IMG/VR virus record: IMGVR_UViG_3300031841_003928
Span: 1 to 20,210 of that record
Source of the DNA: a virus
Reading direction: 5' to 3' (one strand)
DNA length: 20,210 nucleotides
Part shown: positions 4,266-20,210 of the stretch, in pieces
Numbering within the stretch: the stretch's first letter is position 1
How the letters are laid out: every line of letters starts with the position of its first letter
Made by a program: the position numbers and the translations under genes
The notes under the pieces: model-generated
The model's input: only the letters and a program-made list of their open reading frames with translations
Database searches by the model: none
What the model was told of the DNA's origin: nothing

Positions 4266-4268
4266 CGG

Positions 4269-4502
4269 ATGGGCCAAGTCATCCACCTCCCGACCATAGA
4301 GGAACTGGACGCTCGGCAGCCGCTCACGCTGCGAACCGCCGCACTCCAGGCATACGAGGACGGAATCACGGCCGCATGGCGAGCTTATGACCGCGCGGAA
4401 CCTGGACAGCAACGAGGCGCGGACATGCTCCATGGCCAGCGAGACGCCTCGCTAGCTTTCGCGACCGAGGGAACACGCATGCTTCATGAAGTGGAGATTT
4501 GA
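4269..4502 (+). CDS. Hypothetical protein, 77 aa
   Basis: ATG at 4269 lies three bases after the rusA stop, inside a run of touching genes. The start GQVIHLPTIEELDARQPLTL is followed by two amphipathic helices, RTAALQAYEDGITAAWRAYD and ADMLHGQRDASLAFATEGTR. I recognise no family. Co-transcription with rusA suggests a DNA-metabolism accessory role, but that rests on position alone. Confidence 0.6.
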   Translation: MGQVIHLPTIEELDARQPLTLRTAALQAYEDGITAAWRAYDRAEPGQQRGADMLHGQRDASLAFATEGTRMLHEVEI

Positions 4503-4503
4503 G

Positions 4504-4953
4504 ATGTTTGATCGAGACAAAAGAGACGCTGAAATCGTCGCCGGATATAAAGCCGGCGCGTCGCCCGTTGCACTGAGCAAAGCGTGGGGGTTACGGCGGG
4601 CTTTAATTTGCAAAATCATCAATGACGCGAGGATTGCGGTTCACGGCAAGGACATCATCCGGCGCTACCAAAAAGGCGAGCGGCCAACCGATATCGCCGC
4701 CAGTCTCAAATTCACGCAGGGCCAGGTCACTGGTTATTTGAAGGCCAAGAAGGCTTTAAAGCCGAGAAAAATCGGCGGCGTTTCGGGGCTTCACGACCGA
4801 GGCGTCAAGAAAGCCCCGGTGGACTTCGATTGGGGACGCGGCTTTGGTCGAGACAACGTAGAGCCCGATCCGCGCGAGACGCATGGCCGCATGTGGCATG
4901 CCAGCACTCACATCCCCACGGCATCGTCCGCAGACCTGGCAGCGAGGGGTTAG
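4504..4953 (+). CDS. Protein with two tandem HTH units
   Basis: The ATG at 4504, one base after the previous stop with GGAG upstream, gives 149 residues; an upstream in-frame ATG at 4486 would overlap. Two similar resolvase/sigma-like HTH units are visible. The first is residues 11-41: IVAGYKAGASPVALSKAWGL then RRALICKIINDAR. The second is residues 51-82: IIRRYQKGERPTDIAASLKF then TQGQVTGYLKAKK. The C-terminal 60 residues are basic and low in structure. It is probably a DNA-binding regulator or replication accessory just upstream of the initiator gene. The internal duplication is visible in the sequence; the role is inferred. Confidence 0.65.
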   Translation: MFDRDKRDAEIVAGYKAGASPVALSKAWGLRRALICKIINDARIAVHGKDIIRRYQKGERPTDIAASLKFTQGQVTGYLKAKKALKPRKIGGVSGLHDRGVKKAPVDFDWGRGFGRDNVEPDPRETHGRMWHASTHIPTASSADLAARG

Positions 4954-4954
4954 C

Positions 4955-5806
4955 ATGGCACGCATCCGTTCAATAAAGCCGGAATTCTTCTCCCACGAAG
5001 AGTTGTTCGATCTTGAGCAAGAAACCGGCTTTCCGGTCCGCTTGGCATTCGCTGGGCTTTGGACGGTTGCCGATCGGGAGGGCCGATTCAAATGGCGTCC
5101 CCGAACCATCAAGCTCGACGTGCTGCCATATGACGAAGTGGACTTTGCGGCGCTTCTCGATGCCTTGTCCGGTGCCGGGTTCGTTCAACGATACGCCGTG
5201 GGCGGTGAAGAATATGGCTGGATACCGTCCTTTTCCGAGCATCAGCATGTGAACGTCCGTGAACCGCAGAGCAAAATACCCGACCCAACCGATGCAACGA
5301 TAGTACCTGCACGTGCAAAACCAGTACCCGCACGTGGGGAAGGGAAGGGAAGGGAAATAGAAGGGAAGGGAAAGGAAGGGAAGGAGGAAGAGCGCGTGAC
5401 CGCGCCGGCCCGCCCAGATGCCGATCCGGATATCGATCTGGCTTTCCGAGCCTTCAACGACTTGGCAAGCGAGGTTGGGCTGGCGAAAGCGCAGTTGCTC
5501 ACTCCGACGCGGCGAAAGGCTCTGACGGCAAGGTTGGCGGAATGCGGCGGCATCGATGGCTGGCGAACCGCGCTCCAGAACATCCGAGGATCGCCGTTCC
5601 TGCTTGGCGATAACGACCGAGGGTGGAAGGCGGACTTTGATTTCGTCCTTCAGGCGAAGAGTTTCACGAAAATCATGGAGGGTTCTTATGGCGCAGGCAG
5701 TAGCTCGGGCGGCGGGAGTTCTGGAGACGCGATCAGACGAGGTTTGGCAAGCGCCTTCGTGGTTGGCGATGTGGAAGGCCGACCAATCGGTGCCGGTGTC
5801 GCTTGA
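4955..5806 (+). CDS. Phage replication initiator (O/DnaD-like)
   Basis: A 283-residue protein, taking the ATG at 4955 one base after the previous stop. The N-terminal 105 residues match a widespread phage replication family: SIKPEFFSHEELFDLEQETG, then RLAFAGLWTVADREGRFKWR, LKLDVLPYD-like and WIPSFSEHQHVN. This is a winged-helix DNA-binding domain. A basic/acidic low-complexity linker (about 117-148) is encoded by a purine tract. The C-terminal domain at about 160-245 has the family block GSPFLLGDNDRGWKADFDFV and KSFTKIMEGSY. The protein would bind the phage origin and recruit the helicase loader, as lambda O does. Relatives normally end near LEGNY. Here a glycine/serine stretch and about 38 extra residues run on, and they overlap the next gene by 119 bases in another frame. 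Confidence 0.8.
   Translation: MARIRSIKPEFFSHEELFDLEQETGFPVRLAFAGLWTVADREGRFKWRPRTIKLDVLPYDEVDFAALLDALSGAGFVQRYAVGGEEYGWIPSFSEHQHVNVREPQSKIPDPTDATIVPARAKPVPARGEGKGREIEGKGKEGKEEERVTAPARPDADPDIDLAFRAFNDLASEVGLAKAQLLTPTRRKALTARLAECGGIDGWRTALQNIRGSPFLLGDNDRGWKADFDFVLQAKSFTKIMEGSYGAGSSSGGGSSGDAIRRGLASAFVVGDVEGRPIGAGVA
5302..5392. repeat. Iteron-like repeats plus polypurine tract inside the replication gene
   Basis: AGTACCTGCACGTG (5302-5315) and AGTACCCGCACGTG (5323-5336) are direct repeats 21 bases apart, i.e. two helical turns. The first contains the perfect palindrome TGCACGTGCA (5308-5317). Immediately after is a 57-base purine tract (5336-5392) of GGGAA-type units broken by a single T. In lambda the origin iterons and an asymmetric tract lie inside gene O, so this may be the phage origin. 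It may also simply encode a flexible charged linker. Confidence 0.6.
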
Positions 5807-6290
5807 CGACGTGGACGGAGCCATTGCCGTTGTCGAGCGAATGCTGGCCCCGGCTAAACCGGAGGATGTCGCGGTTGTTCTCGGCAAGACGCTGGTGATG
5901 TGGACACCTCCGAAAGAATTGAACCTGCAAGACGCCATGCCGCTCTACGTCCATGCGTTGTCGGATTTGCCGATTGACCTGCTGCGGTCCGCGATGGCGA
6001 AGGCGACGAAGAGTTGCGAGTTCTTCCCCCGTCCAGCGACGATCCGGGATCAAGTTGCCAGCGAGTTTTCCGCCCGTCGTCATACGCTATCCCGCATGAA
6101 AGCCGCCCGTGGGAAAGCGGCGCACGAACAGGCCTTGGAACGGGATCGTCGGGAGCGCGCCTCGGCCAAGGCGGCGGAGGTACGTGAGATCGGCGAGCGA
6201 TTACGTGCGATGTCCGATGGCGTGGTGGCGCGGACCAAGGCGATGAAGGGCGGGCCAGTCCCCGGCGACACCATCGAGGCCGCTGAATGA
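5688..6290 (+). CDS. Putative helicase-loader-like replication protein
   Basis: The ATG at 5688, with GGAGG at 5678-5682, gives 200 residues; a longer frame to 5556 would lie wholly over the initiator's C-terminal domain. The central part, PEDVAVVLGKTLVMWTPPKE then MPLYVHALSDLPIDLLRSAM and CEFFPRPATIRDQV, resembles phage proteins that follow initiators. In those, a helical bundle ends in a F(F/M)P.PAE(I/L)R-type motif and the protein may load the replicative helicase, as lambda P does. The C-terminal third is a charged helix rich in A, R, K and E. I see no Walker motif, so it is not a DnaC-type ATPase. Family assignment is by pattern and position only. Confidence 0.5.
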   Translation: MAQAVARAAGVLETRSDEVWQAPSWLAMWKADQSVPVSLDDVDGAIAVVERMLAPAKPEDVAVVLGKTLVMWTPPKELNLQDAMPLYVHALSDLPIDLLRSAMAKATKSCEFFPRPATIRDQVASEFSARRHTLSRMKAARGKAAHEQALERDRRERASAKAAEVREIGERLRAMSDGVVARTKAMKGGPVPGDTIEAAE

Positions 6291-6589
6291 CCATCGCTCA
6301 CGCCTTCAACTGCTCGCCGTCCGACGCCAAGGCAATCGCCAATCGCTCTACGGCCTTTCACGCGGCTGTCGACAGGCTTGGTCCCATCCGCGCATGGAAG
6401 CGGGGCAAGGTCTGGACGCTGGACGGGCGCAGGGCGGAACCGGCGGAGTTTATCGAAGAAGCGGATTGGTTGGCGTCGCGGCCCGCGCGGACGGATTACG
6501 AGGCTAAGTGGTTGGGCCAAAAGCCGTCGTTTGGAGGCGAGCCATTGACATCCACCAGACAACCAACAACGGCGAAGGAGGGTGAGTAG
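6287..6589 (+). CDS. Hypothetical protein, 100 aa
   Basis: Starts at an ATGA overlap with the preceding gene. The start HAFNCSPSDAKAIANRSTAF then GPIRAWKRGKVWTLDGRRA looks like a small nucleic-acid-binding or excisionase-like fold, but I do not recognise a family. The C-terminus (TSTRQPTTAKEGE) is disordered. GAAGGAGGGTGAG at its 3' end provides the ribosome-binding site for the next ORF. Confidence 0.6.
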   Translation: MTIAHAFNCSPSDAKAIANRSTAFHAAVDRLGPIRAWKRGKVWTLDGRRAEPAEFIEEADWLASRPARTDYEAKWLGQKPSFGGEPLTSTRQPTTAKEGE

Positions 6590-6760
6590 ATGGACGCGGA
6601 GCTAGAGGCGAGGATCGATCGGGTGGGACGGCAGCGGGTTTTCTATCGCATGGCCGCGCTTGGTTGGACCCCGGGGAGTCGTCCTCCGAAATGGGCTTGG
6701 GGGTCGCTTGTCGACGAATTGGAGGCTGGTACACGGCCTCTACCGATCGTCGCGAAATAG
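6590..6760 (+). CDS. Hypothetical protein, 56 aa
   Basis: ATG at 6590 touches the previous TAG, and AAGGAGGG lies 8-15 bases upstream. The product begins DAELEARIDRVGRQRVFYRM and continues ALGWTPGSRPPKWAWGSLVD, tryptophan-rich and positively charged. I recognise no family. The strong ribosome-binding site and exact abutment support expression. Confidence 0.6.
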   Translation: MDAELEARIDRVGRQRVFYRMAALGWTPGSRPPKWAWGSLVDELEAGTRPLPIVAK

Positions 6761-6784
6761 ATTCGGCCAAGGAGGAATAGCGAT

Positions 6785-7432
6785 ATGGACCGAGAAATGA
6801 TTTTGAATGCCCCGGCGACACCAATCCCGTTCCGTCGCCACGGCACCGTGGAGCGCCGAGAGGGGATCAACGGGCGATTTGTCCCGCGCCGGTATGCCGA
6901 TGAAGAAAACCTCGATTGGTATGCTCTGGTGACGAAGCCCCAGCACGAATTCGTCTGCGCCGGGAAGATCCAGGACATGGGCCATGCCGTCTTCGTTCCG
7001 TATGCCTCGGAATGGCGTCGGAAGAGCCGCTATAGCAAGGCCAAGGTGCAGCGCCATTACCCGTTGATGCCTCGATACATCTTTGTCGGTTTCGATTACC
7101 TGCCGCCGTGGCTGGACTTGCACGCCGCTGATTGCATGCAGGGCGTGGTGGGCGTTGGTGGCTACGCGAAGAAGCTTCCGACCGCGCGCGTGATCGAGCT
7201 GATCAACACTCACGGCGCGGGCGTATACGTGGCTCCGGCGGCGCAACAGTTCATGCGGACACACCACGAATTCGCCGTGGGGGACCGGGTGCAAATCGTC
7301 GACGGCCCGCTCTATGAGCACTTCGCCGAGGTGACCGCGATCGACGGCAAAAAGGCCCGTATCTTGTTTGAGATTTTCAATGAGGTACTGGATATAGAAA
7401 TTGCGCTTGACGATCTCGTGATTGCTCGGTAG
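6785..7432 (+). CDS. NusG/RfaH-family transcription elongation (antitermination) factor
   Basis: A 215-residue protein with AAGGAGGA 9 bases before the ATG. After a 43-residue basic leader comes an NGN domain: DWYALVTKPQHEFVCAGKIQ at 44-63, then HAVFVPY at 67-73 and the family block HYPLMPRYIFVGF at 91-103. A KOW domain follows at about 163-190: FAVGDRVQIVDGPLYEHFAE then VTAIDGKKARILFEIF. This is the layout of specialised NusG paralogues (RfaH, UpxY, LoaP), which bind RNA polymerase and suppress pausing and termination on chosen operons. It stands at the end of the early genes, immediately before a 383-base structured gap and the packaging/head operon, where lambda places Q. It is therefore a good candidate late-gene antiterminator. 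The family is clear; the target is inferred. Confidence 0.88.
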   Translation: MDREMILNAPATPIPFRRHGTVERREGINGRFVPRRYADEENLDWYALVTKPQHEFVCAGKIQDMGHAVFVPYASEWRRKSRYSKAKVQRHYPLMPRYIFVGFDYLPPWLDLHAADCMQGVVGVGGYAKKLPTARVIELINTHGAGVYVAPAAQQFMRTHHEFAVGDRVQIVDGPLYEHFAEVTAIDGKKARILFEIFNEVLDIEIALDDLVIAR

Positions 7433-8245: not shown

Positions 8246-8627
8246 ACCTGCGGGTACAGCTAAGAGACAGCTTCCAAAGGCGATGGAGGCTCATCAGTTC
8301 AAGCCCGGCCACTCCGGCAACCCAAAAGGGCGCGGCAAAGGTGTTCGCAACAAGCTTGGAGAGGCGTTCTTGGAGGCCCTCCACGAGGACTTCAACGAGC
8401 ATGGCGCGGCGGCAATCACCAAGTGTCGGGAAGACAGCCCCGTGGCGTACGTCAAGGTCTTGGCCAGCATTTTGCCGAAGGATCTCAATGTCACAATCAA
8501 CCCGTTGGAAGAACTGACCGATGCCGAGCTTATCGAGCGGATCGGAGAACTCAGGGACGCCGTTGACTCCGCTCTTGGTGGAACTGGCGCGGTTGCAGGC
8601 GGAACGGAAGAGGCGACTCGACACTAA
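8232..8627 (+). CDS. DUF5681 protein, likely small terminase subunit
   Basis: A 131-residue protein with the DUF5681 signature FKPGHSGNPKGRGKGVRNKL at residues 23-42, then EAFLEALHEDFNEHGAAAI and YVKVLASILPKDLNVTINPL. DUF5681 proteins lie directly upstream of large terminase genes in many alphaproteobacterial phages. The basic N-terminus and helical core suit a DNA-recognising small terminase, though biochemical proof for the family is lacking as far as I know. The C-terminal third (ELTDAELIERIGELRDAVDS) is acidic and helical. It overlaps the large terminase frame by up to 107 bases. Confidence 0.75.
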   Translation: MAGRKPAGTAKRQLPKAMEAHQFKPGHSGNPKGRGKGVRNKLGEAFLEALHEDFNEHGAAAITKCREDSPVAYVKVLASILPKDLNVTINPLEELTDAELIERIGELRDAVDSALGGTGAVAGGTEEATRH

Positions 8628-9942
8628 CCTTCTCGCCCGATACCTGCCTTATTCCAAGCAGAAAGATTTTCACCACGAGACGGTCCGCGAGCGGCTGTTC
8701 ATGGCGGGCAACCAGCTCGGGAAGTCCTGGGCGGGGGCTTTCGAGTGCGCGATGCACCTGACTGGGAAGTACCCGGATTGGTGGGAAGGCAAACGCTTCA
8801 AGAAGCCTGTGATTGGCTGGGCGGCGGGAGAGACGGGCGAGGTTGTCCGCGACACCATCCAACGGTTGCTGTTGGGCCGTGTTGAGCCCTGGGGGACGGG
8901 GGCGATCCCGCAGGCGGATGTAATCAGCGCTGATTCCGCTCTCGGAACGCCAGGTTTGAAGGGCGTCATCAAGGTTCGTCATGTGTCGGGCGGTGAAAGC
9001 CAATTAACGCTGAAGTCGTACAATCAGGGGCGGGAGAAGTTCCAGGGCGAAACGCTCGATTTTTGCTGGTTTGACGAAGAGCCGCCGATTGACATCTTCA
9101 CCGAGGGGCTGACGCGCACGAATACGACGCAAGGGCCGATTTGGATGACGTTCACGCCGCTCAAAGGCATGTCCGATGTTGTGGTGAGGTTTTTGATGGA
9201 GGAAAACCCTGACCGCTCGGTTACTCAGATGACCATCGAGGACGCCGAGCACTACTCGCCGGAACAGCGTGAGAAGATTATCGCCAGCTACCCAAAGCAC
9301 GAACGGGAAGCCCGGACGAAGGGCGTGCCGATTATGGGCTCGGGTCGCGTCTACCCGATCTCGGAAGAGGAAATCACCATCGCGCCGTGCCCGATCCCGC
9401 CGCATTGGGCGCGCATCGTGGGCATGGATTTGGGCTGGGATCACCCGACAACCGCCGTTTGGCTGGCATGGGACAAGGACACGGACACGATTTACGTCAC
9501 GGACGCCTATCGTAAGCGCGAGACGGTCCCGGCGATGCACGCGGCGACGATCAAGGCCAAGGGGGAATGGATGCCCGTGGCCTGGCCTTCGGACGCTGGG
9601 AGCCACGGCAGGGACGGCGCAACGCCGCTTGTCGAGCAGTATCGTGGTCACGGGCTGAAGATGCTGTCTGATAGAGCGCAATTCGATGACGGCGGCGTAT
9701 CCGTCGAGGCCGGGCTCATGGAGATCCTGGAAAGGATGGAAACGGGGCGGTTTAAGGTGTTCGCTCACCTCAATGAGTGGTGGGAAGAGTTCCGGATCTA
9801 TCATCGCAAGGACGGCAAGATCGTCAAGGAACGCGATGATCTGATGGATGCGACCAGGTACGCGGTGATGATGAAGCGCGAGGCCAGGACGAAGCCGGCG
9901 CCGCACAAGCCCATCAACGTCAATACAAGCTGGGTCGAGTAA
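8521..9942 (+). CDS. Terminase large subunit
   Basis: The ATPase-nuclease motor that pumps and cuts phage DNA at the portal. Walker A is GNQLGKS (63-69). Walker B is LDFCWFDEE (179-187), with D185 and E186 or E187 as acidic residues. Motif III is WMTFTPLKG (208-216). The RNase H-fold nuclease starts at IVGMDLGWDHPTTAVW with D303, continues at AWPSDAGSHG with D358, and ends at DDLMDATRYAVM with D443, the three acidic residues expected for metal binding. The length of 473 residues is normal for the short terminases of SU10-like and P22-like podoviruses. The start is uncertain: the ATG at 8521 lies 107 bases inside the upstream gene, and a GTG at 8578 would give LARLQAERKRR near the N-terminus, as in relatives. 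Confidence 0.93.
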   Translation: MPSLSSGSENSGTPLTPLLVELARLQAERKRRLDTNLLARYLPYSKQKDFHHETVRERLFMAGNQLGKSWAGAFECAMHLTGKYPDWWEGKRFKKPVIGWAAGETGEVVRDTIQRLLLGRVEPWGTGAIPQADVISADSALGTPGLKGVIKVRHVSGGESQLTLKSYNQGREKFQGETLDFCWFDEEPPIDIFTEGLTRTNTTQGPIWMTFTPLKGMSDVVVRFLMEENPDRSVTQMTIEDAEHYSPEQREKIIASYPKHEREARTKGVPIMGSGRVYPISEEEITIAPCPIPPHWARIVGMDLGWDHPTTAVWLAWDKDTDTIYVTDAYRKRETVPAMHAATIKAKGEWMPVAWPSDAGSHGRDGATPLVEQYRGHGLKMLSDRAQFDDGGVSVEAGLMEILERMETGRFKVFAHLNEWWEEFRIYHRKDGKIVKERDDLMDATRYAVMMKREARTKPAPHKPINVNTSWVE

Positions 9943-10371: not shown

Positions 10372-10578
10372 ATGTCTCAAGCACTAGCTGTCCGCGTTGC
10401 GCGGCTGGATCAATCCCTCACGGCTGCGCTTGATCTGATCTCGGATCTCCGTGCGAAGTCTGCCGATCTCGAAGAGCGTGTCGAGGATCTGGAAACGCGG
10501 CCAGCCGATGTTTCTGGGACGGTCGTTGAAATCATGCCCCGCAAGCGCGGGCGCCCGAGAAAGCTGGCCAATGTCTGA
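10372..10578 (+). CDS. Coiled-coil protein with an AT-hook-like tail
   Basis: A 68-residue protein; the ATG at 10372 has AGAGG 6 bases upstream (TTG at 10366 is less likely). A heptad-rich helix, RVARLDQSLTAALDLISDLR then ADLEERVEDLETR, predicts a coiled coil. The C-terminus PRKRGRPRKLANV contains RGRPRK, which matches the AT-hook core (GRP flanked by basics), so it may bind the DNA minor groove. The stop overlaps the portal start by 8 bases (ATGTCTGA). Function is unknown. Confidence 0.65.
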   Translation: MSQALAVRVARLDQSLTAALDLISDLRAKSADLEERVEDLETRPADVSGTVVEIMPRKRGRPRKLANV

Positions 10579-12895
10579 TTCATCCCGATCCGATAGCAAG
10601 CTTAGGGCGGCCTTATCGTCGCAACTGCGCTCGGCTATTGGGTATGACAATGACGAGCTATCGTCCGAACGCGCCACCGCTTGGCGTTATTACATGGGCG
10701 AGCAATCGACCCTGCCGAGCATCCCGGGACGATCGAAGGTCATGTCCCGCGACGTTTACGAGACGGTCGAAACGGTCATGCCGTCATTGGTGCGGGTGTT
10801 TCTCGGCACGGATCAGGTGTTCCGATTTGAGCCCGAAGGCGAAGAGGACGAAGAGGCGGCGCAGCAGGCGACGGATTATGTCTCGTGGCTGATGCGTCGC
10901 AAGGGCAATTTCCGGCAGATATTCGATTGGATGAAATCGCCGCTGATTTACAAGAACAGCGTCCTGCACGTCTGGTGGGAGGAATCCGAAACCGAAGTCA
11001 CCGAGGAATACACCGGCCTTAGCGTTGATGAGATGACGGAGATCGTCAACGACGAGAGCGTGACGGTTGAAGAGATTGAAGAGTACCCGGCGGAGGTTGA
11101 AATGCCCGCCGAGCCGCAAATGCCACCGCAGCCGATGGGGCCGGATGCTGGCGGCATGCCTCAAGCGCCGATGCCGGGTGACGCCGGCGGGATGCCGGCC
11201 ATGCCGATGCAAGAGCCGATGGCGCTCTTTGACATCAAGATCCGCCGCGTCAAAACCAGCGGCGAAATCAAGATGGAGGCTCTCCCGCCCGAAGAGTTCT
11301 TGACCAACAGCCGCGCCAAGTCTTTGGAAGACGCGCGCATGGTGGCCCGGCGCACGCGGGTATCGAAGAGCGACCTGTTGAAGCGCGGCTATGACGAGAC
11401 GGAAGTCGAGAGCCTGAGCGCCGACGATGATCTGTATGAGGAAACCGAGGAGCGATTTGACGACCTCGAATACGATGACGACAACGACGCCACCAATGAG
11501 GCGGCGCAACTGTGTCGGATCTATGAGGTCTATATCCAGTTCGATTATGACGACGACGGCGAGACCGAATGGCGGCGAGTGGTCATGGGCAACGGTCCGG
11601 ACTCTCCGGTTATTTTCGAGAATGACAAGCACGAGGGATTGCTGCCGTTCTGTGATCTAACGCCGATCATCCTGCCGCATCGCCGCATCGGGTTGTCAAT
11701 GGAGGACGGGTCGCGAGAGGTCCAGCGGTGGAAGTCGACCTTGCTGCGGATGATGATGGACGGGCTTTATCACTCCGTCTTCCCGCGCAAAGTCGTGGAC
11801 ATGAGCCAGATTGAGCCCGAGTTCTTCAACGACGTGTTGAACCAGGCGCCGGACGCCATCATCCGCGCCAAGGGGCCGAATGCGATCGTGCCTCTCCAGA
11901 CGACCTGGGAAGGCCAGCGCGCCTTTCCGATGCTCGAATATGTCGACGGCCAATTGGTCCGCCGCACGGGCGTTACCCCGATGGGGCCGGATCTTAATCC
12001 GAACGCATTGCAGCCGGAGACGGCGGAAAAGGTCCGCGAGGACAGCAATCAGGGCCGCGAGCGAACCGAGCTTATCACGCGCGTGTATGCGGAGACGGGT
12101 TTCAAGCAACTGGCCCGGTTGATGCTCCATCTCGTGACCAAGCACCAGGACAAAGAGCGCATTATTCGCCTTCGCGGCAATTGGGTGCCGATGGACCCGC
12201 GATCATGGAACGCGGATATGGACATCAAGGTGTCTGTTGGCTTGGGAACCGGCAATCGTGACCAGCAGATGCAGCGCTACATGGTGATAGCTCAGAAGCA
12301 GGAGCAGATCCTACAGGTGGCGGGGATGCAAAACCCGCTGGTGACGCTGAAGAACTATTACAACACGCTGGAGAAGATGGTCGAGGCGGCGGACTTGCCG
12401 GACGTTGATATTTTCTTCACCGACCCGGACAAAAACCCGATGCCGCCGCAACAGCCGGGGCAAGATCCGAAGGTGGCCGAGGCCCAAGGCAAGATGCAAA
12501 TGGAGATGCAAAAGCTCCAAATGCAGCAGCAAATGGACGGCCAGAAGATGCAAGCCGAGGCGGCCATGGCGGAGAAGAAATTGCAAGCCGATTCCGCTCT
12601 TGCCGCTCAGAGGCTCCAGGCGGAACAGCAGATCAAAGCCCAAGAGGCCCAGCGCAACGCGGCAATGCAAGAGCGGCAGTTCCAGCAACAGTTGGAACAG
12701 CAGCGCGTGATTGAGGGCATGAAGCTGGAGGCCTCCGAGCGCCAGGCCGAGCGGGCGTATCAATTGGATGTCCAGAAGATGGCCGTCGATCAGCAATTCC
12801 GCGAGCGGGAGCTGGTGATGGAAGCCGAATTGGAACAATTGAAGATGGCCGCCGGCTCGCGTGACGGGCAGGGCAACATCAACGTGAGCGACTGA
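10571..12895 (+). CDS. Portal protein (SU10/P22-type)
   Basis: 774 residues from the ATG overlapping the preceding stop; an upstream frame to 10451 overlies another gene. The N-terminus has the signature WRYYMGEQSTLPSIPGRSKV then SRDVYETVETVMPSLVRVFL (38-78), as in large podovirus portals. A proline/methionine/glycine-rich insert (about 173-217, with repeated DAGGMP) splits the early domain. The stem/wing region follows with DLTPIILPHRRIGLSMEDGS. The C-terminal ~150 residues are a long Gln/Met/Lys-rich coiled coil (QKLQMQQQMDGQKMQAEAAM and similar) that probably forms the barrel in the virion. The portal is the dodecameric channel for DNA entry and exit and binds terminase. The size and tail match the P22-like class, so a short-tailed virion is likely. 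Confidence 0.88.
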   Translation: MSDSSRSDSKLRAALSSQLRSAIGYDNDELSSERATAWRYYMGEQSTLPSIPGRSKVMSRDVYETVETVMPSLVRVFLGTDQVFRFEPEGEEDEEAAQQATDYVSWLMRRKGNFRQIFDWMKSPLIYKNSVLHVWWEESETEVTEEYTGLSVDEMTEIVNDESVTVEEIEEYPAEVEMPAEPQMPPQPMGPDAGGMPQAPMPGDAGGMPAMPMQEPMALFDIKIRRVKTSGEIKMEALPPEEFLTNSRAKSLEDARMVARRTRVSKSDLLKRGYDETEVESLSADDDLYEETEERFDDLEYDDDNDATNEAAQLCRIYEVYIQFDYDDDGETEWRRVVMGNGPDSPVIFENDKHEGLLPFCDLTPIILPHRRIGLSMEDGSREVQRWKSTLLRMMMDGLYHSVFPRKVVDMSQIEPEFFNDVLNQAPDAIIRAKGPNAIVPLQTTWEGQRAFPMLEYVDGQLVRRTGVTPMGPDLNPNALQPETAEKVREDSNQGRERTELITRVYAETGFKQLARLMLHLVTKHQDKERIIRLRGNWVPMDPRSWNADMDIKVSVGLGTGNRDQQMQRYMVIAQKQEQILQVAGMQNPLVTLKNYYNTLEKMVEAADLPDVDIFFTDPDKNPMPPQQPGQDPKVAEAQGKMQMEMQKLQMQQQMDGQKMQAEAAMAEKKLQADSALAAQRLQAEQQIKAQEAQRNAAMQERQFQQQLEQQRVIEGMKLEASERQAERAYQLDVQKMAVDQQFRERELVMEAELEQLKMAAGSRDGQGNINVSD

Positions 12896-12896
12896 G

Positions 12897-15038
12897 ATGC
12901 TTAAACGAAACCAGCAAGACCTAGCGCCCCTCGGGCGCCGCAACCGCGTTGTTCCAGGGTTGTTGGAATTCGCGGAAGAGAACCCGGTTGAGGCGGGTTT
13001 GTTGGCGGCGAGCATGGCCCCTGTGCCGGTGGTTTCCGACGTGGCTGGTTTGCTTGGCGACATCACCGGGATGGTTAAGCGCCCAGAAGATAGAACGTGG
13101 GCAAACGCGGTACTTGCTGCGCTAGGGTTGCTCCCGTTCGTGCCGGCGGGGATCACGAAAATCACCAAGTCGGTGGACCTGCCCGATCTTCGAAAGATGG
13201 ACGTTGCCGAGGGGACGGCGGTTGCCCGCAAGGAGCCGCACCTCATTCCAAGTCACGACAAGGCGGATGGGAAATACGTTGGCGGACCGCGAATGGTAAA
13301 GAGCAAGCGCGGGCTAACCAATTTGCGTAACCGCTTCGACGCCTATGTGGCGGCGGACCCTCGCGGTGGCGACTGGTATGACCGCTACCGCAATTCCGTG
13401 ACCGACGTGACCGGCGGTGATCCCCGAGATGCAGAATGGATGAGTAAAATGGAGGCTCAGTGGTCTGCCGGAGTTTCTCCTGAGGGCGAGCTTGGTTTTG
13501 CCCTGAAGGAGAACAACGCGGCGCTGGCGGGATCTCCAACGAAGTCAGCGCGCCCGGCGCAGCATGAGGCGTTCAAGCGCGCGATCGATGCGAATGATCC
13601 GAATGAATTGCAACTCGGGAAAAAGACGGGCGAGTATGGCCGCCGTATTGACCCGAGCCAGCCACACCCGCCCACGGCGACGGGCGTAAACGATTTCCGC
13701 CACGCGCGGAATTTCGACTACACCGAGGTGGGTGGCGGCTCTCAGCGGGACGCACTGACGGATGCACAGCATCGGTTCTTGGACTATGAGACCGCGCTTG
13801 CGGTTAACCGCGCCAACCACGCGAATATCGGCGGTCGGTCGGACTGGACCGGCGAGCAGTTGCAGGCGGCACCTTGGGTAAGGCAAAAGGCCGAAGCCAT
13901 TTTGGAGCAGCGACCGGCGATCCTTGAGAAGTACCGCAAGCTGGGCTTGCCGGAACAGGACGCATACCGCTTGGCATATGAAGAGGCTTTTACCGAAGCC
14001 ACAAAGACCATTGGGGAACATTTCCCGAAGCACACCGCATACGCCACCCACGAAAGCATGGTTGGCCCAAATACCGGCCACATGCCGGGTTCCGTGAATG
14101 CAACGCAGGCCGAACGTGAGGCCTTCGCGGTAGACCCGCGCTCAACTTGGGCCAATGCCCCCGGTGGCCGTGACGCGATCTATTCTGGCCGTCGTTTGGA
14201 TGACACGGGCGTTGCTATGAGGGTGCGCCCCACGCAGCCCATGCAGGGACTGTATCAACCGCCCGGCGGGTTGCTTGAGGTCAACCCTGGCGAAGTCGCG
14301 CGTCCACTGGTGGCTTTTGACTCGGGCAAGGTCAAGTCTTTACCGCAAACCGACCGAGACATTCTGGAGGCTGGTGAGGCGGTTCGCGCATATGTGGACG
14401 CGCAGGACGCGGGCGCCGCGCACAAAGTGTGGGCCGGGGGCGCGTCCGGGCAGTCCAACAGCATGTTTGTTCCAAGGTCGGGGCCGGCTACGCAGGAACA
14501 GTTGATGGCGGTTCGTGATGCCGCTGCGCCGTATGGCCTAGGGGATGTAGTGGATACGGGCGAGGGGCTGACGGTTACTAGTTTTTATCCAGATCCACCT
14601 AAGATGTCTTCTAAGCAGGCCGGCTTACTAACAGACGCCCTGGATGGGGCGCTTCCCGGCGAAGCAGTAGTTCCGCGCAGGGTTAAGGTTGATTCGGTCT
14701 ATGAGGACTACGTTGATGCGTGGAAGGCTGGTGAGGGGTCTGGGAAGGCGACGGAGCAGCTACTCCGCAAAATAAACAAGAGCCCGGAACTCCGCGCGGC
14801 GTTTGACAACAACCCCCATCTAGCTGAGAACGCGCTTAACCGGTTGCAGCGAGACAAGGACTGGTCGTCAAAATGGGGCGGCACTAGGGAAGACATCCAA
14901 ACCGCCCGCTCGGTTATTGCTGGCGGGCCAGGATGGGTTGGCAGGTTGGAAAAATTGGTCAAGAAGGGCGTTTTGCCGGCGGCTTTGGTGGGGGCTGTTC
15001 TGTCGAACGCTCGCCTTTCTGGCGAAGAACAGTCTTAG
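12897..15038 (+). CDS. Large putative virion/internal protein, 713 aa
   Basis: Starts one base after the portal stop. Hydrophobic stretches lie near the N-terminus (VEAGLLAASMAPVPVVSDVA at 31-50; AVLAALGLLPFVPAGI at 71-86) and near the C-terminus (GVLPAALVGAVLSN). The motif GDITGMVKRPEDRTWANAVL is shared with large proteins that follow portals in some alphaproteobacterial phages. The middle is hydrophilic, with no enzyme motif that I can see. Short-tailed phages carry ejection proteins that form a channel across the envelope, and membrane-active ends with a soluble core would fit. It may instead be a toxin-like or polyvalent protein. The last 80 bases overlap a gene on the opposite strand. 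Confidence 0.6.
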   Translation: MLKRNQQDLAPLGRRNRVVPGLLEFAEENPVEAGLLAASMAPVPVVSDVAGLLGDITGMVKRPEDRTWANAVLAALGLLPFVPAGITKITKSVDLPDLRKMDVAEGTAVARKEPHLIPSHDKADGKYVGGPRMVKSKRGLTNLRNRFDAYVAADPRGGDWYDRYRNSVTDVTGGDPRDAEWMSKMEAQWSAGVSPEGELGFALKENNAALAGSPTKSARPAQHEAFKRAIDANDPNELQLGKKTGEYGRRIDPSQPHPPTATGVNDFRHARNFDYTEVGGGSQRDALTDAQHRFLDYETALAVNRANHANIGGRSDWTGEQLQAAPWVRQKAEAILEQRPAILEKYRKLGLPEQDAYRLAYEEAFTEATKTIGEHFPKHTAYATHESMVGPNTGHMPGSVNATQAEREAFAVDPRSTWANAPGGRDAIYSGRRLDDTGVAMRVRPTQPMQGLYQPPGGLLEVNPGEVARPLVAFDSGKVKSLPQTDRDILEAGEAVRAYVDAQDAGAAHKVWAGGASGQSNSMFVPRSGPATQEQLMAVRDAAAPYGLGDVVDTGEGLTVTSFYPDPPKMSSKQAGLLTDALDGALPGEAVVPRRVKVDSVYEDYVDAWKAGEGSGKATEQLLRKINKSPELRAAFDNNPHLAENALNRLQRDKDWSSKWGGTREDIQTARSVIAGGPGWVGRLEKLVKKGVLPAALVGAVLSNARLSGEEQS

Positions 15039-15136: not shown

Positions 15137-15415
15137 TTAGGCCTCCATTCGATCAATATCGCGCTCACAATACATGACCGCGCGCTTGATGGCTTCTCGC
15201 TTGGATCGGGAGGAGTAGCGGTTGAACCCGTTTCCATAGGTCCACCACCTGCGGTTGCCGTTCATGTGCGAGATGACGCCCCAGAACACCTTGCCTGCGC
15301 CGGGGATGACTTGCGGGCGGTAGATGCTGATTTCGGTGTGACCGGGGTAGCGCGCTTCGACAGTGGTAACGCGTCCGTGCTGAGATCTTGTGGGCAGTTT
15401 AGGCATGGCGTTCAT
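15137..15415 (-). CDS. Minus-strand small basic protein, 92 aa (cassette gene 1)
   Basis: ATG at 15415 with GAGGAGG about 9 bases upstream. A beta-rich N-terminal half (GRVTTVEARYPGHTEISIYR, KVFWGVISHMNGNRRWWTYG) is followed by a basic helix, NRYSSRSKREAIKRAVMYCE. The net positive charge could mean nucleic-acid binding. I recognise no family. It is the promoter-proximal gene of an oppositely oriented pair within the head operon, the usual form of a moron. A promoter should lie in 15416-15521, but I could not identify a convincing one. Confidence 0.7.
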   Translation of the reverse strand: MNAMPKLPTRSQHGRVTTVEARYPGHTEISIYRPQVIPGAGKVFWGVISHMNGNRRWWTYGNGFNRYSSRSKREAIKRAVMYCERDIDRMEA

Positions 15416-15521: not shown

Positions 15522-16523
15522 ATGCGTATCTTTGCCCCGCTTTTGCATCGCACGGTCGGAGACTTCATCGAGCAAGCGATTTACGCGGCGACGGTAAGGG
15601 AACAGTTCGAGAAGGCCAGCTTAGACGCCTATTACGTTGATGACCGTGCCTATAAGGCCGAGATCCTCGCGATGCTGCCGCAATTCGATCGGCTTTGGGC
15701 GGGGATGCCTATTCCGCTCGATTGGTTCGATAGCGCGGCCCACGGGACAATCCCGAAGTTCCCGGCATGGGAAGCGGCGCACGTTGATCAGAGCGAAATC
15801 ATCCTGCCGCCGATGGCGTGCAAGCGGGAATATCTCCCGGCGTTCGACAGGCTGGCGCAATTCACGCTCCCTGATGGATGGCCGGTGCCGGATTTCCCGA
15901 CCTGGCACGCGGTGATTCACTACCGAGAGGCGGGATACGAGCATCGGGTTGATAGGCCGAACCGGGACATCGACCCGGCCCAGGCGAATGAAGTCATCGA
16001 CCATATCATTTCCAGGGGCGGGCACGTTGTCCGCATCGGTCATGAAGACATGACGCGGTTGCCGGCGCGCAAGGGATACGCGGACTGGTCGAGGATGTCT
16101 TTCAAGCATCAGGCGGGCGCGGTGTCGAGCGCTAGGCTGTTTGTGGAGATTTCCCCGAGCGGGCCGGCGGCACTGTGTCTGGGCTTCAATGTCCCATGGC
16201 TTCGGTGCAATTCGGTCGAGGTCAATGGCCCGACGCGGGGGCACGACATGATGCTGATGCAACACGTTATGGCCGATGGGGCTGAAGTGCCGACAAGCGT
16301 TCTGATCGATCGGGGCGAATTCACCGAGCGCGGGGTTGAGGGCGCGGGGATGGAGTTTCGAAAAAACGCCACCGATGAGATTGCCCGCGCGATCGATGTG
16401 ATGCTGGACCGGGGGCGCGATGAATTGTCGGAGACGGCCCCGACGAACAGGATCGAGATGCCGCCCCGCATTGTTAGAAAGCACTCGATTGTGCGGTGGG
16501 GAGAAATGAGGGCGGCGGCTTGA
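15522..16523 (+). CDS. TIGR04372-like glycosyltransferase
   Basis: 333 residues from the ATG at 15522; a TTG at 15501 is the alternative. It opens APLLHRTVGDFIEQAIYA, as in GT-B-type enzymes. Conserved-looking blocks are HYREAGYEHR (133-142), PNRDI (146-150), GGHVVRIGHEDMTRLP (166-181), SFKHQAGAVSSARLFVEISP (193-212) and SGPAALCLGFNVPWLRCN (213-230). The order N-DI ... GG-V-RIG--M--LP ... K ... S-ARLF ... SPSG-----F--P--- N matches what I know of the TIGR04372 putative glycosyltransferases of LPS/O-antigen clusters. It is coupled by TTGA to a second glycan-type gene. The role would be transfer of a sugar to a surface or virion acceptor. The family match is by eye. Confidence 0.6.
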   Translation: MRIFAPLLHRTVGDFIEQAIYAATVREQFEKASLDAYYVDDRAYKAEILAMLPQFDRLWAGMPIPLDWFDSAAHGTIPKFPAWEAAHVDQSEIILPPMACKREYLPAFDRLAQFTLPDGWPVPDFPTWHAVIHYREAGYEHRVDRPNRDIDPAQANEVIDHIISRGGHVVRIGHEDMTRLPARKGYADWSRMSFKHQAGAVSSARLFVEISPSGPAALCLGFNVPWLRCNSVEVNGPTRGHDMMLMQHVMADGAEVPTSVLIDRGEFTERGVEGAGMEFRKNATDEIARAIDVMLDRGRDELSETAPTNRIEMPPRIVRKHSIVRWGEMRAAA

Positions 16524-17647
16524 TCTACTTCATGATTGAAAACCGTGACCGGGAGTTATGGTCCCGGCTTCTCGTCGCGGGGGCATTGCACGATCGGGGA
16601 ATATCAAGCGTCATCGGAAGCCAGCGGGTGTTGGCGCCGAACCTTGAATCGCTCCCGGTGGGATGTGTCGTATTCAAGGGCGAAAACAAGGCCATGCGCG
16701 GATGGATGGAGACGGCAAAGCGGGCCGGTCACAACATCGCGGTGATGGATGAAGAGGGGTTGGCGGTTCGTTGCCCGGTGCATTTCCGGTCGGACATCCT
16801 GCCGGGTCTTCCGGTCGATGTAACCTACGTTGCAAACGAGTGGCAGGCCGAACACGCGATCAACGGCAAATGGACGGGCAACCCGAGGCTGGATCTGCTG
16901 AAAAGGCCCGAGATTTACGGCGATCCCGATCGATCAGGGTATCTGCTGGTCAACACCAACACCAGCGGGGCCAACCCCCGAGGCGGCGACATCAAGGCTT
17001 ATCATGCGATGTGCATGTCAGCGGGGGTGTTCGATAGCCGAGAGCAGTTCATCGCTCATATCGAGCACGATTGGACGTGCATCAAGAAGGTGCGGGAGTT
17101 TATCGAGGCATACGACGGCGAGGTGGTGATCAGGCCGCATCCCGGCGAGAACCCGGACCCGTGGCTAAATCTATATCGAGGCAACCCGAGAGTTCACGTC
17201 GCCGTTACTGGGAATCACATTCAATGGATGCGGGGCGCGCGCTGTGTCTTGCACACGGGCTGCACGACGGCACTTGAGGCGGCGCATATGGGCGTGCCTT
17301 CGGTATCTCTGTTGGCGGGTGATCACGATGACACTGTTTTCGCGACGAACTATCCACCTTTCCCAGCTACCGCCGACATCGGCGAGGCGCTTGATTTGGT
17401 CGAAGCCGCCGAGGTGCCGGGCGTGGATGGCGACGGCGAGGCCCACAAGCGGATTGCGGCGGATCTTGTCCCGCGTGCTGGCGAGAGCCGAGCGGTGGAG
17501 TTGGCATATACGGCGGTCTCGGGCGTGGACCCGTATTTCCTGAGCAAGGCCAAGATGGGGGTGAGTGACCTTCGTGATTTCGCGGGCAAGTGGGGATTGG
17601 ATCTGCCGATCCGCCAAATCGGTGACAGCGTATTTCAAGCGGGGTGA
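16520..17647 (+). CDS. Surface-carbohydrate biosynthesis (GT-B/glycerophosphotransferase-like) protein
   Basis: 375 residues from the TTG at 16520, which overlaps the previous stop (TTGA). This start keeps the first strand IYFMIENRDRELWSRLLVA intact; GTG 16496 and ATG 16532 are alternatives. Blocks typical of TIGR04396/CDP-glycerol-transferase-like proteins are seen: IGSQRVLAP (32-40), VMDEEGLAV (75-83), GNPRLDLL (120-127), VVIRPHPGENP (202-212) and HTGCTTALEAAHMGVPSVSL (245-264). The last is the donor-binding loop and EA---G-P signature of GT-B enzymes. The acceptor could be a host envelope glycan, a capsid or DNA. Its presence between a structural gene and the scaffold is unusual. The C-terminal 40 residues, KAKMGVSDLRDFAGKWGLDL and beyond, look like an appended helical segment. 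Confidence 0.65.
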   Translation: MIYFMIENRDRELWSRLLVAGALHDRGISSVIGSQRVLAPNLESLPVGCVVFKGENKAMRGWMETAKRAGHNIAVMDEEGLAVRCPVHFRSDILPGLPVDVTYVANEWQAEHAINGKWTGNPRLDLLKRPEIYGDPDRSGYLLVNTNTSGANPRGGDIKAYHAMCMSAGVFDSREQFIAHIEHDWTCIKKVREFIEAYDGEVVIRPHPGENPDPWLNLYRGNPRVHVAVTGNHIQWMRGARCVLHTGCTTALEAAHMGVPSVSLLAGDHDDTVFATNYPPFPATADIGEALDLVEAAEVPGVDGDGEAHKRIAADLVPRAGESRAVELAYTAVSGVDPYFLSKAKMGVSDLRDFAGKWGLDLPIRQIGDSVFQAG

Positions 17648-17670: not shown

Positions 17671-18573
17671 ATGCCTCGTCCTGACACCATGACAATCCCC
17701 GGCGCGGGGACGATGACCCGGCGCGGGCCTTCGATGATGCCTGGGGCCTCCATTTGGCCCGAGTGGCAAAAGGGGCTCCTGTCCGACAAGCAAATGAACG
17801 AGGTCATGCCGCATTTCGCGGGCGGCATTTATGGCGAGGGCGGATACCAGGTGCGAACGCCAGCCAACCCGCAGTCTTTCGGGCTTCTCGGCGCGGGCGA
17901 CCCGCGCGTCTGGGGCGGGACGGCGGCGGAAAACATCATGGCCCAGCCACAACCGCCGCAATCAATGCAGCCGGTCCAGTCACAAGGCCTGCTGGCCCAG
18001 CCCACGGGGCAAGGCGGCAACGGGCTTCTGTCGAATAACCCGAACGGTCAACTGCCGCAGGAACAGCTATCTTTGATGGCCAATCAACCGCAGGAACAGC
18101 TATCTTTGAGGGCCGGAACACCGATGGCTCCGGAGCCGCTGTCTTTGATGCCCAACCAACCGCAGGGCGTGGACCCGATGGCGGGCAATCAAATCCGCCC
18201 GGTCACACCGTCCGGCATTTGGGATGTGCAACCCGACCCGAGCGTGACAAGCGATGCCGCGACGGCACCGGGCTTCACCAATCGGCAGGTATTCGAGATG
18301 ATGAACGGCCACTTGCTCGGCGGTGACCCGATGGAAACGGCGGGGCAGAGGGGCGTGAATATGCAATACGCTCAACACCTCATGAACGGCGGTAATGGCG
18401 GCGCGAATGGCGGCGTGTTTGGCTCGGAAGGCAACGGCGGGTTCTCTCCTGTCGGCGGCTTTACCGAGGAAGATTGGGACACCCAATACGACCCGAGCAA
18501 TCAATCCAATATGGCCGATTGGTACACGTCCTATATTCGCAACAATAGCGGTCCAGACGGGAGTTCGCGATGA
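17671..18573 (+). CDS. Glycine/glutamine/proline-rich hypothetical virion protein
   Basis: The ATG at 17671 with AAGGAG 6 bases upstream decides the start, giving 300 residues; a longer frame to 17644 lacks a site. The N-terminal part PRPDTMTIPGAGTMTRRGPS then WPEWQKGLLSDKQMNEVMPH is followed by a low-complexity stretch rich in Q, P, N and G with tandem PQEQLSL units. A glycine/asparagine-rich linker (MNGGNGGANGGVFGSEG) leads to an acidic, aromatic C-terminus (EEDWDTQYDP ... MADWYTSYIRNN). It is probably disordered and virion-associated. It overlaps the next gene (ATGA). I recognise no family. Confidence 0.65.
   Translation: MPRPDTMTIPGAGTMTRRGPSMMPGASIWPEWQKGLLSDKQMNEVMPHFAGGIYGEGGYQVRTPANPQSFGLLGAGDPRVWGGTAAENIMAQPQPPQSMQPVQSQGLLAQPTGQGGNGLLSNNPNGQLPQEQLSLMANQPQEQLSLRAGTPMAPEPLSLMPNQPQGVDPMAGNQIRPVTPSGIWDVQPDPSVTSDAATAPGFTNRQVFEMMNGHLLGGDPMETAGQRGVNMQYAQHLMNGGNGGANGGVFGSEGNGGFSPVGGFTEEDWDTQYDPSNQSNMADWYTSYIRNNSGPDGSSR
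18055..18148 (+). repeat. 33-bp tandem repeats in the Q/P-rich gene
   Basis: The 22-base block CCGCAGGAACAGCTATCTTTGA, starting at 18055, recurs identically at 18088 (period 33). A degenerate third copy starts near 18130 and ends with GTCTTTGA. They encode PQEQLSLMANQ-type units (PQEQLSL twice, then PEPLSL). Recent duplication by slippage or unequal recombination is likely; copy number may vary between relatives. Confidence 0.85.
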
Positions 18574-18845
18574 GCGATGAAGACGCCAAGCGGCGGCTAG
18601 AGGAACAACAGCGCGCGGGCGAAGAAGCCCAGCGCATCCTCGGGAGCGATTTGTTCAACAAGGTTTTTGACGATCTCCGCGAGCTTTACATCCGCGATGC
18701 GGTCAGCGCTCAGGAAGCGACCGCGAGGCTGGATCGCCTGAAAGCGGTCGAGGTTCTTGAACACGTGCGGGGCGCGCTTGGCGCGGCTTTGATGGCGGGT
18801 AAGGCTTCTCAAGCCATGCTCGGGCACAAGCACGAGGTCGTATAG
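18570..18845 (+). CDS. Small helical protein, 91 aa
   Basis: Starts at an ATGA overlap. Almost all-helical: DEDAKRRLEEQQRAGEEAQR, then SDLFNKVFDDLRELYIRDAV and ATARLDRLKAVEVLEHVRGA. Small helical proteins with a LF...F..L.......A ... LR.L...L pattern commonly lie between portal and scaffold in podoviruses, but no function is established to my knowledge. It is the last gene before the intrinsic terminator at 18876. Confidence 0.65.
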   Translation: MSDEDAKRRLEEQQRAGEEAQRILGSDLFNKVFDDLRELYIRDAVSAQEATARLDRLKAVEVLEHVRGALGAALMAGKASQAMLGHKHEVV

Positions 18846-18875
18846 AGAATTCCCTGCATTGACAGGGGTTAGTTG

Positions 18876-18897
18876 GCGTCCTTCGGGGCGCTTTTTT
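18876..18897 (+). terminator. Intrinsic terminator inside the head operon
   Basis: GCGTCC (18876-18881) pairs with GGGCGC (18886-18891), one G-T pair, around a C(TTCG)G tetraloop, then six T (18892-18897). This is a textbook Rho-independent terminator, placed between the 91-aa gene and the scaffold ribosome-binding site at 18926-18932. It would cut scaffold and capsid expression unless it is read through or a promoter lies downstream. Confidence 0.85.
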
Positions 18898-18938
18898 CAT
18901 TTGCGGTAGCGCCCGAGGGCGTCGCAAGGAGGTTGAAA

Positions 18939-19958
18939 ATGGCAGTTGTCGGTAGCGCCTCACCAGGCGTCGATGACCTTAATCTCGACGGTTTCGAGGC
19001 GTTCGCGTCTCAGGAATTGGACGCCGAAGACGGCATTAATCGAGAGCAAGACACCGAGACGGTTGATGGTCCTTACGAGGGTAGCCCAGAGGCCGACGAG
19101 GGGGCAGAAGAGCAGCCAGAAGGCGATGACGCCGAAGGTTCTGAAGCCGAGGACGAGGAATCGTCCGAATCCGAAGACGATGCGACTGAAGCCGAGGGCG
19201 AAGAGAGTCCAGAACAGGCCGAGGGCGATGACCTTGAAGACTTTGTCGAATGGGAACATCCCCAGCACGGCCCGATCCGGGTAGCTCTTGACGAACTCCG
19301 TGACGGTTACATGCGGACCGAGGATTACACGCGGAAAACCACGTCGTTGAGTGACGAGGCCCGCGAACTCCAGAACCGCGCGCAAGATTGGGAGCGCACG
19401 AAGGAACGGGAGTTGCTGTTTCTACAGGCCAACACGCCTCAGAAGCCGCAATGGGATTCGGATGATCCAATCGGATCGGCTGAAGCTCAGCACCAGTATG
19501 AAGCTGTGATGCAACAGCGCGCCGCTTTCTTGCAACAGCATGAACAGCGACACGCCCACGCTCAACAGCAGTACGCGGCTGAGCAGGCGACATTGCTTCC
19601 CCGGCGCATCCCTGAATGGGCGACGCCGGAAGTGGCAAGCCGCGAAAAGGCCGGCGTTCGGGACATGCTTCTGTCGTCGGGGTACGCCCAGGATGAAATC
19701 AACGGTTTGGCAGATAGCCGGGCCGTCGTCATCGCCCGAAAGGCGTATCTCTATGACCAGGTAATGGCCGAACGGAAATCCAAAACATCGATCGCGAAGA
19801 AGAAGGTGGCCGCAAAGCCGCCGGTTCCCGTGCGGTCGGCTGGTCCCGCTCCGAAGCCGAAAGGCGATCCCAAGAAAGCGCGCCTTGTGAAAGCACACCG
19901 CCAGAAGGGCAGTGCTGAATCAATGGCGGCCATTCTCATGGCTGACATGATGAAGTAA
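18939..19958 (+). CDS. Scaffolding protein (putative)
   Basis: 339 residues from the ATG with AAGGAGG 6 bases upstream; a longer frame to 18873 overlies the terminator. The N-terminal ~100 residues are extremely acidic (EDEESSESEDDATEAEGEES and similar). A conserved-looking block, LRDGYMRTEDYTRKTTSLSD at about 120-139, is typical of podovirus scaffold/head-assembly proteins. Long glutamine-rich helices follow (YEAVMQQRAAFLQQHEQRHA), and a strongly basic C-terminus (SKTSIAKKKVAAKP, GDPKKARLVKAHRQKG) probably binds the capsid shell. It lies directly before the major capsid gene, as scaffolds do. It would drive procapsid assembly and leave before or during DNA filling. Confidence 0.8.
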   Translation: MAVVGSASPGVDDLNLDGFEAFASQELDAEDGINREQDTETVDGPYEGSPEADEGAEEQPEGDDAEGSEAEDEESSESEDDATEAEGEESPEQAEGDDLEDFVEWEHPQHGPIRVALDELRDGYMRTEDYTRKTTSLSDEARELQNRAQDWERTKERELLFLQANTPQKPQWDSDDPIGSAEAQHQYEAVMQQRAAFLQQHEQRHAHAQQQYAAEQATLLPRRIPEWATPEVASREKAGVRDMLLSSGYAQDEINGLADSRAVVIARKAYLYDQVMAERKSKTSIAKKKVAAKPPVPVRSAGPAPKPKGDPKKARLVKAHRQKGSAESMAAILMADMMK

Positions 19959-19989: not shown

Positions 19990-20210
19990 ATGGCTGTCCC
20001 CTCCGGAACGACTACCACGTTCGACCTCACGGGCGTTCGTGAAGACTTGAGTAACCTGATATTCAACATCTCACCAACGGAAACTCCAGCAGTGAGTAAC
20101 ATGAAGAAGGGCACCGCAACCAACACCTACCATGAATGGCAGACGGATTCCCTCGCCGCCGCCGCGTCGAATTCACATCTCGACGGCGACGATTCGAGCC
20201 CGACTACCAT
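19990..20210 (+). CDS. Major capsid protein, N-terminal part (SU10/PF17236-like)
   Basis: ATG at 19990 with AAGGAG (19977-19982) 7 bases upstream. The frame is cut by the right edge after 73 complete codons. VPSGTTTTFDLTGVREDLSN then LIFNISPTETPAVSNMKKGT and TYHEWQTDSLAAAASNSHLD is the N-terminus of the SU10 major head protein family (PF17236, DUF5309), an HK97-fold capsid. The HEWQTD--- A ... GDD pattern is diagnostic to my eye. High expression is expected, consistent with its strong ribosome-binding site. Confidence 0.88.
   Translation, partial: MAVPSGTTTTFDLTGVREDLSNLIFNISPTETPAVSNMKKGTATNTYHEWQTDSLAAAASNSHLDGDDSSPTT

Follow-up and report, generated by a model that had tools for sequence, protein, structure and literature searches.

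Predicted glycosylation genes interleaved with the head genes of uncultured podovirus-like phages

Gene layout of the head operon

The complete 20,210-base IMG/VR record IMGVR_UViG_3300031841_003928, hereafter called the window, was analyzed. Two genes of glycan-related families, gtA and gtB, lie within its head operon (Table 1). In an earlier reading made from the sequence alone (the sequence-only reading), they had been described as a translationally coupled two-gene glycan-modifying cassette, located between a virion protein and the scaffold on the strand of the capsid genes. The head-gene neighbors, their common strand and the overlap of the gtA stop with the gtB start were all found as described, and from this overlap we infer translational coupling. 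As to the flanks, the scaffold gene does lie downstream, with two genes between it and gtB, but the upstream 'virion protein' is better described as a swappable large protein (see below), and gtA is immediately preceded by a minus-strand open reading frame (ORF). No counterpart of this ORF was found at any related locus; the block is otherwise plus-strand and late.

Table 1. Features of the window discussed in the text.
Feature	Position	Strand	Match or remark
NusG-like protein	6785-7432	+	PF02357, 1.8e-9; KOW below cut-off
Terminase large subunit	8521-9942	+	PF03237, PF17289
SU10-type portal protein	10451-12895	+	PF23899, 619 bits; true start probably slightly downstream
Large variable protein in the portal-scaffold slot	12897-15038	+	Homologue L067:1600-3831
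ORF of 92 aa between large variable protein and gtA	15137-15415	-	No family match
gtA, TIGR04372-family glycosyltransferase, 333 aa, accessory	15522-16523	+	Profile match
gtB, core gene of the site, TIGR04396-family GT-B protein with TTG start, 375 aa	16520-17647	+	
TTGA stop/start overlap of gtA and gtB	16520-16523	+	Same junction in L003/L004
Gln/Pro/Gly-rich protein	17671-18573	+	Kept behind gtB across the clade
Small conserved gene preceding the scaffold gene	18570-18845	+	Same place as small gene of isolated relatives
Head scaffolding protein	18873-19958	+	phrog_3927, 2.1e-30
SU10-type major capsid protein, first 221 bases, to window end	19990-20210	+	Major capsid protein of relatives matches PF17236

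In base composition, gtA and gtB are similar to the neighboring genes, and promoter and terminator scans around gtA remained at chance level. A role as late antiterminator is possible for the NusG-like protein, whose gene lies just 5' of the packaging and head block.

Families of gtA and gtB

Both family assignments of the sequence-only reading were borne out by profile searches. The gtA product scored 53.5 bits against TIGR04372 (curated cut-off 45), residues 128-306 being aligned with positions 2-194 of the 207-position profile; the gtA copies of two relatives (L001 and L002) scored 57.7 bits. The gtB product scored 155.8 bits against TIGR04396 (curated cut-off 125), and its orthologues scored 145.2 bits in L067, above the cut-off, and 116.7 bits in L068, just below it. 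BFO_1060 glycosyltransferase matches were present among the relatives of gtB. An eleventh TIGR04396-like match (L075) was left out, being located at a contig end in seemingly non-phage sequence.

PF04464, which had been put forward for checking, was not matched: neither gtA nor gtB gave any Pfam match at E-values up to 10, or any PHROGs match. By tblastn, neither gene had a match among 50,697 isolate phage records, and gtA had none in plasmids. Bacterial relatives of gtB were absent from the genome contig scans; the only one located is encoded on an Azospirillum plasmid, in a neuC/neuB/cytidylyltransferase locus. Since the bacterial neighborhood of TIGR04396 is represented by this one plasmid locus, a nonulosonic-acid donor is regarded as only a lead. 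No mention of TIGR04396, TIGR04372 or BFO_1060 was found in the literature searched.

Predicted fold of gtB

PDB sequence searches with gtA, gtB and the C-terminal half of a third enzyme described below (TPR-GT) gave no usable match. The structure of gtB was modeled from an alignment that included two diverged orthologues together with a distant relative, near-identical sequences alone having given a pLDDT of 35. The resulting model (pLDDT 67.5, pTM 0.70) matched 120 PDB chains at E <= 0.001 in Foldseek, and VIA-align gave Z-scores of 14-17 to GT-B enzymes over about 275 residues. Closest were UDP-GlcNAc 2-epimerases (Z 16-17), followed by TDP-vancosaminyl-, phosphatidylinositol mannosyl-, rhamnosyl- and TarL-type transferases (Z 14-15). 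The modeled fold is GT-B, in agreement with the sequence-only reading, and is compatible with either a transferase or an epimerase.

Conservation of gtB and loss of gtA

An intact gtB was found in 10/10 contigs covering the site, two diverged phages among them. It was also intact in all seven slot-covering contigs recovered via portal or scaffold searches; as these searches recovered the contigs independently, this is no artefact of gtB-based searching. The start codon is non-ATG throughout (TTG in close relatives, GTG in two diverged phages). In 3300005512_000815 (L068) and 3300025687_000536 (L067), gtB is 49-51% identical and occupies the same place without gtA, in L068 directly 3' of the portal gene. 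Comparison of the window with relatives gave dN/dS values of 0.10-0.13 for gtB and 0.09-0.12 for the portal gene, and comparison with L001 gave 0.13 for gtA. Purifying selection on gtA and gtB is as strong as on the portal gene.

An intact gtA was present in 3300031111_000127 and 3300028883_000129, directly 3' of the portal gene (with a TGATG overlap in L002) and followed by a 118-aa ORF before gtB. In 3300018415_001166 and 3300020176_000075, gtA is frame-shifted by an internal deletion (window 15598-16362), and in three other relatives it is reduced to its last ~21 codons. Two different deletions were distinguished, one in L003/L004 and one in L007-L009, and gtB is intact throughout. By this comparison of sequences, gtA is accessory, was lost at least twice and behaves like cargo of the slot, unlike gtB. 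Of the proposed two-gene cassette, the existence and overlap of both genes stand, but the pair is not conserved as a unit: gtA was deleted in two ways in close relatives and is absent from L067/L068, whereas gtB was kept and has a different partner, TPR-GT.

The portal-scaffold slot

The slot between portal and scaffold differs among near-identical phages, in which terminase and portal have 95-98% identity. The slot proteins of relatives carry ART-PolyVal (PF18760), PBECR5 (PF18814) or LPD23 (PF18838) and have end segments in common. Interchangeable proteins of the ART-PolyVal ADP-ribosyltransferase, PBECR5 nuclease and LPD23 types are encoded at L008:10822-11850, L004:9363-10952 and L004:6091-8001. 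The protein encoded directly after the portal gene of the window has its N-terminal ~105 residues in common with the LPD23 protein of L004 and is such a swappable large protein. The cargo proteins have N- and C-terminal segments in common; gtB has no counterpart of these.

In three relatives, the end of gtB is overlapped by the start of a gene for a fibre-like protein (L008:9131-9985, 284 aa), of which the C-terminus matches the phage tail-protein family phrog_17312. This protein is a candidate acceptor for glycosylation. A 44.9-kb relative (L049) carries a tyrosine integrase gene at 3918-4958 (-), so some clade members are likely temperate, and an OrfB/TnpB-like IS605-family gene at 5594-7009 (-), the latter by a weak match (PF12323, 0.0003). 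The sugar genes lie in the late block, far from the integrase (G001).

A third enzyme beyond the window

In related contigs, the interval from the major capsid gene to the SU10-type adaptor gene (PF24175), past the position at which the window ends, holds the gene for a protein of 444-481 aa with a clear TPR half, named TPR-GT. The gene was found in 10/10 clade contigs reaching its place, L067 and L059/L068 (at 55-58% identity) among them; as the window stops before it, the phage of the window is presumed to carry it too. In L029, the ATG of the gene overlaps the upstream stop codon (ATGA), and its last 29 bases are shared with the adaptor gene.

In tblastn searches, the C-terminal half of TPR-GT had several relatives: an environmental phage gene that carries the annotation glycosyltransferase tibC, a TPR protein of a second such phage, ctDrO704 (36%), and, in Azospirillum and elsewhere, TPR proteins and proteins annotated as GT9. 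Among the Pfam and NCBIfam glycosyltransferase models, none matched the C-terminal half in the clade at a meaningful E-value, so that the label 'glycosyltransferase' is taken from relatives and motifs; this half looks GT-B-like. PDB matches of the whole protein were rejected as a clue to the C-terminal half, being driven by the TPR part. The possibility that some copies are pseudogenes was likewise rejected: the in-frame stops, at codons 8 and 26, belong to a frame drawn too long and lie upstream of the common start, and the true ATG overlaps the preceding stop. Rhizobium phage RHph_X2_30 encodes an annotated glycosyltransferase of ~1,177 aa (L061:5436-8969), the C-terminal part of which is related to TPR-GT. 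From gene content across the clade, the conserved unit is gtB plus TPR-GT, with gtA optional.

Parallel cases and partner genes

In the unrelated phage ctDrO704, the interval from the capsid gene to the SU10 adaptor gene encodes a TPR-GT, an endonuclease, a methyltransferase and a GT8 enzyme (PF01501, 4.9e-9). In 3300017991_000022 (L076), which has a different portal, a TIGR04396-like gene (124.5 bits, cut-off 125) immediately precedes the SU10 adaptor gene. No glycosyltransferase is annotated in the portal-to-scaffold interval of five phages whose portals are related, namely Pelagibacter phage HTVC106P, Sulfitobacter phage NYA-2014a, EBPR podovirus 2, Sinorhizobium phage phiM5 and the environmental genome ctXG6705, and none of the five gave a TPR-GT match at any position. 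Together, the two parallel cases and these absences indicate that sugar-enzyme genes entered the head-operon region more than once.

The sequence-only reading had seen no gtrA-like flippase gene and had taken this to favor a cytoplasmic target. The observation was extended: GtrA and GT2-type GtrB were absent from 7/7 records (the window and six related contigs, several of them fragments), with control genomes positive. Thymidylate-synthase-like enzymes are the usual source of hydroxymethyl bases; no such gene was detected in the same seven records, several being fragments, and controls were again positive. These absences weaken seroconversion and DNA glycosylation as explanations, to the extent that fragmentary records allow. 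No NeuB was found in the phage records, so any nonulosonic-acid donor must be host-derived.

Discussion

The sequence-only reading had proposed that late expression with the capsid genes would suit either glycosylation of the virion or a timed change of the host envelope. What it had observed was confirmed, and its interpretation was supported in part. A cytoplasmic target is favored by the enzyme families, the modeled GT-B fold of gtB, the late same-strand position and the lack of GtrA and GT2 partners, and the location of TPR-GT beside the capsid gene would tilt the choice between virion and envelope toward the virion. We hold, with moderate confidence, that gtB, TPR-GT and the optional gtA constitute a soluble cytoplasmic system for the glycosylation of virion proteins that uses host-made donors.

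The proposed activities, donor, acceptor and benefit would be as follows. In the cytoplasm, the TPR half of TPR-GT would bind a virion protein, be it of capsid, decoration or fibre, to which the GT-B-like half of the enzyme would add the first sugar. The glycan might then be extended or capped by gtB, and by gtA where present, with nucleotide sugars, possibly CMP-nonulosonic acids, supplied by the host. Particles glycosylated in this way could be less easily bound or recognized, or fitter for their host or habitat. A more specific and more tentative version is that TPR-GT, in the manner of the flagellin-modifying enzyme FlmG discussed below, picks a new head protein and gtB caps the glycan with a host nonulosonic acid, which would give a sialylated or sugar-coated podovirus particle.

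Counting against virion glycosylation are the names of both bacterial families, which derive from surface-polysaccharide loci, and the absence of the genes from isolated phages whose portals are related. In the main rival, which we judge unlikely, gtB and gtA would act during lytic growth on a cytoplasmic precursor of the host surface polysaccharide and alter it; virions, once released, would thereby avoid re-binding to debris, or infected cells would resist superinfection. Late co-expression is compatible with such envelope remodeling, bacterial TIGR04396 members are annotated as surface carbohydrate proteins, and the only plasmid relative, from Azospirillum, lies in the neuC/neuB/cytidylyltransferase locus. 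Yet no GtrA or GT2 (GtrB) partner accompanies the genes, which lie within the head operon and, in G001, far from the integrase; nor does remodeling explain why TPR-GT is interleaved with capsid and adaptor genes, or why ctDrO704 and 3300017991_000022 show parallel arrangements. Given the effector-type genes in the same variable slot, gtA could also be cargo with no relation to the virion, and gtB possibly too. Both would then act on the host like the ART-PolyVal and PBECR5 proteins, made late or injected from the virion. The remaining slot genes do encode polymorphic effector-type proteins and the presence of gtA varies, but gtB is intact in every site-covering contig, diverged phages included, and lacks the end segments common to the cargo proteins; we give this account little credence.

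That epimerase folds are slightly closer to the gtB model than transferase folds raises another improbable alternative, on a par with the cargo account: instead of transferring a nucleotide sugar, gtB could make or modify one, as a WecB/NeuC-like GT-B-fold 2-epimerase providing the donor, with TPR-GT as the sole transferase. Although UDP-GlcNAc 2-epimerases are its top structural matches, the gap to the glycosyltransferases next in rank may merely reflect the common fold. Moreover, gtB does not match the Pfam Epimerase_2 model at E up to 10 but does match TIGR04396, its relatives match BFO_1060 glycosyltransferase, and, in the Azospirillum locus, neuC already exists as a separate gene. Glycosylation of the phage's own hypermodified DNA seems very improbable. 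The T4 glucosyltransferases are phage GT-B enzymes known to glycosylate DNA. This precedent is joined by the diverse DNA glycans reported by Pyle et al. (2024), as cited in PMC12619734; against it, the window and the six related contigs lack a thymidylate-synthase-like gene, and the genes are situated among structural rather than replication genes.

Virion protein glycosylation, to our knowledge, has been demonstrated in few phages so far. Across the diverged, uncultured podovirus-like phages compared here, genes for predicted glycosylation enzymes lie in between head genes and have been conserved, and TPR-GT offers a testable rule for the selection of one virion protein. If correct, the proposal would show how phage particles can be coated, with bearing on antibody recognition and surface adsorption, and glycosyltransferase genes between the portal or capsid gene and the adaptor gene would be a genomic signature for finding more such systems.

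Comparison with known systems

The gtrABC seroconversion cassettes of temperate phages are likewise phage-borne glycosyltransferase systems. Unlike these, the present pair is not accompanied by GtrA or a GT2-type GtrB and lies in a late operon rather than beside an integrase gene. Bacterial TIGR04396/BFO_1060-type proteins come from surface-polysaccharide and nonulosonic-acid loci; gtB and the Azospirillum member have the RPHPxE...E-A-A motif region in common. Compared with the bacterial proteins, those of the phages are shorter and have a conserved tail of their own (IGDSVFQ-G), and their genes lie beside capsid genes without sugar-synthesis genes.

In mycobacteriophages, phage enzymes glycosylate capsid and tail proteins and thereby shield the virions from recognition (Freeman et al. 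2023, as cited in PMC12619734). The likeness to that system is drawn from this cited description; in the present case, the enzymes are of the TIGR04396, TIGR04372 and TPR-GT types, are encoded in the head operon of SU10-like podoviruses, and have a predicted activity. FlmG of Caulobacter crescentus is a soluble cytoplasmic flagellin O-glycosyltransferase that binds flagellins by its TPR domain and adds pseudaminic acid by its GT-B-type domain (PMC7591256). With 596 aa, FlmG is longer than the phage TPR-GT, which in addition is encoded between capsid and adaptor genes. The two are likened by domain layout, the N-terminal TPR domain and C-terminal GT-B-type domain of FlmG being set beside the clear TPR half and the putative GT-B-like C-terminal half of TPR-GT. 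FlmG modifies the subunits of a large protein assembly, and by analogy the phage TPR-GT may do the same.
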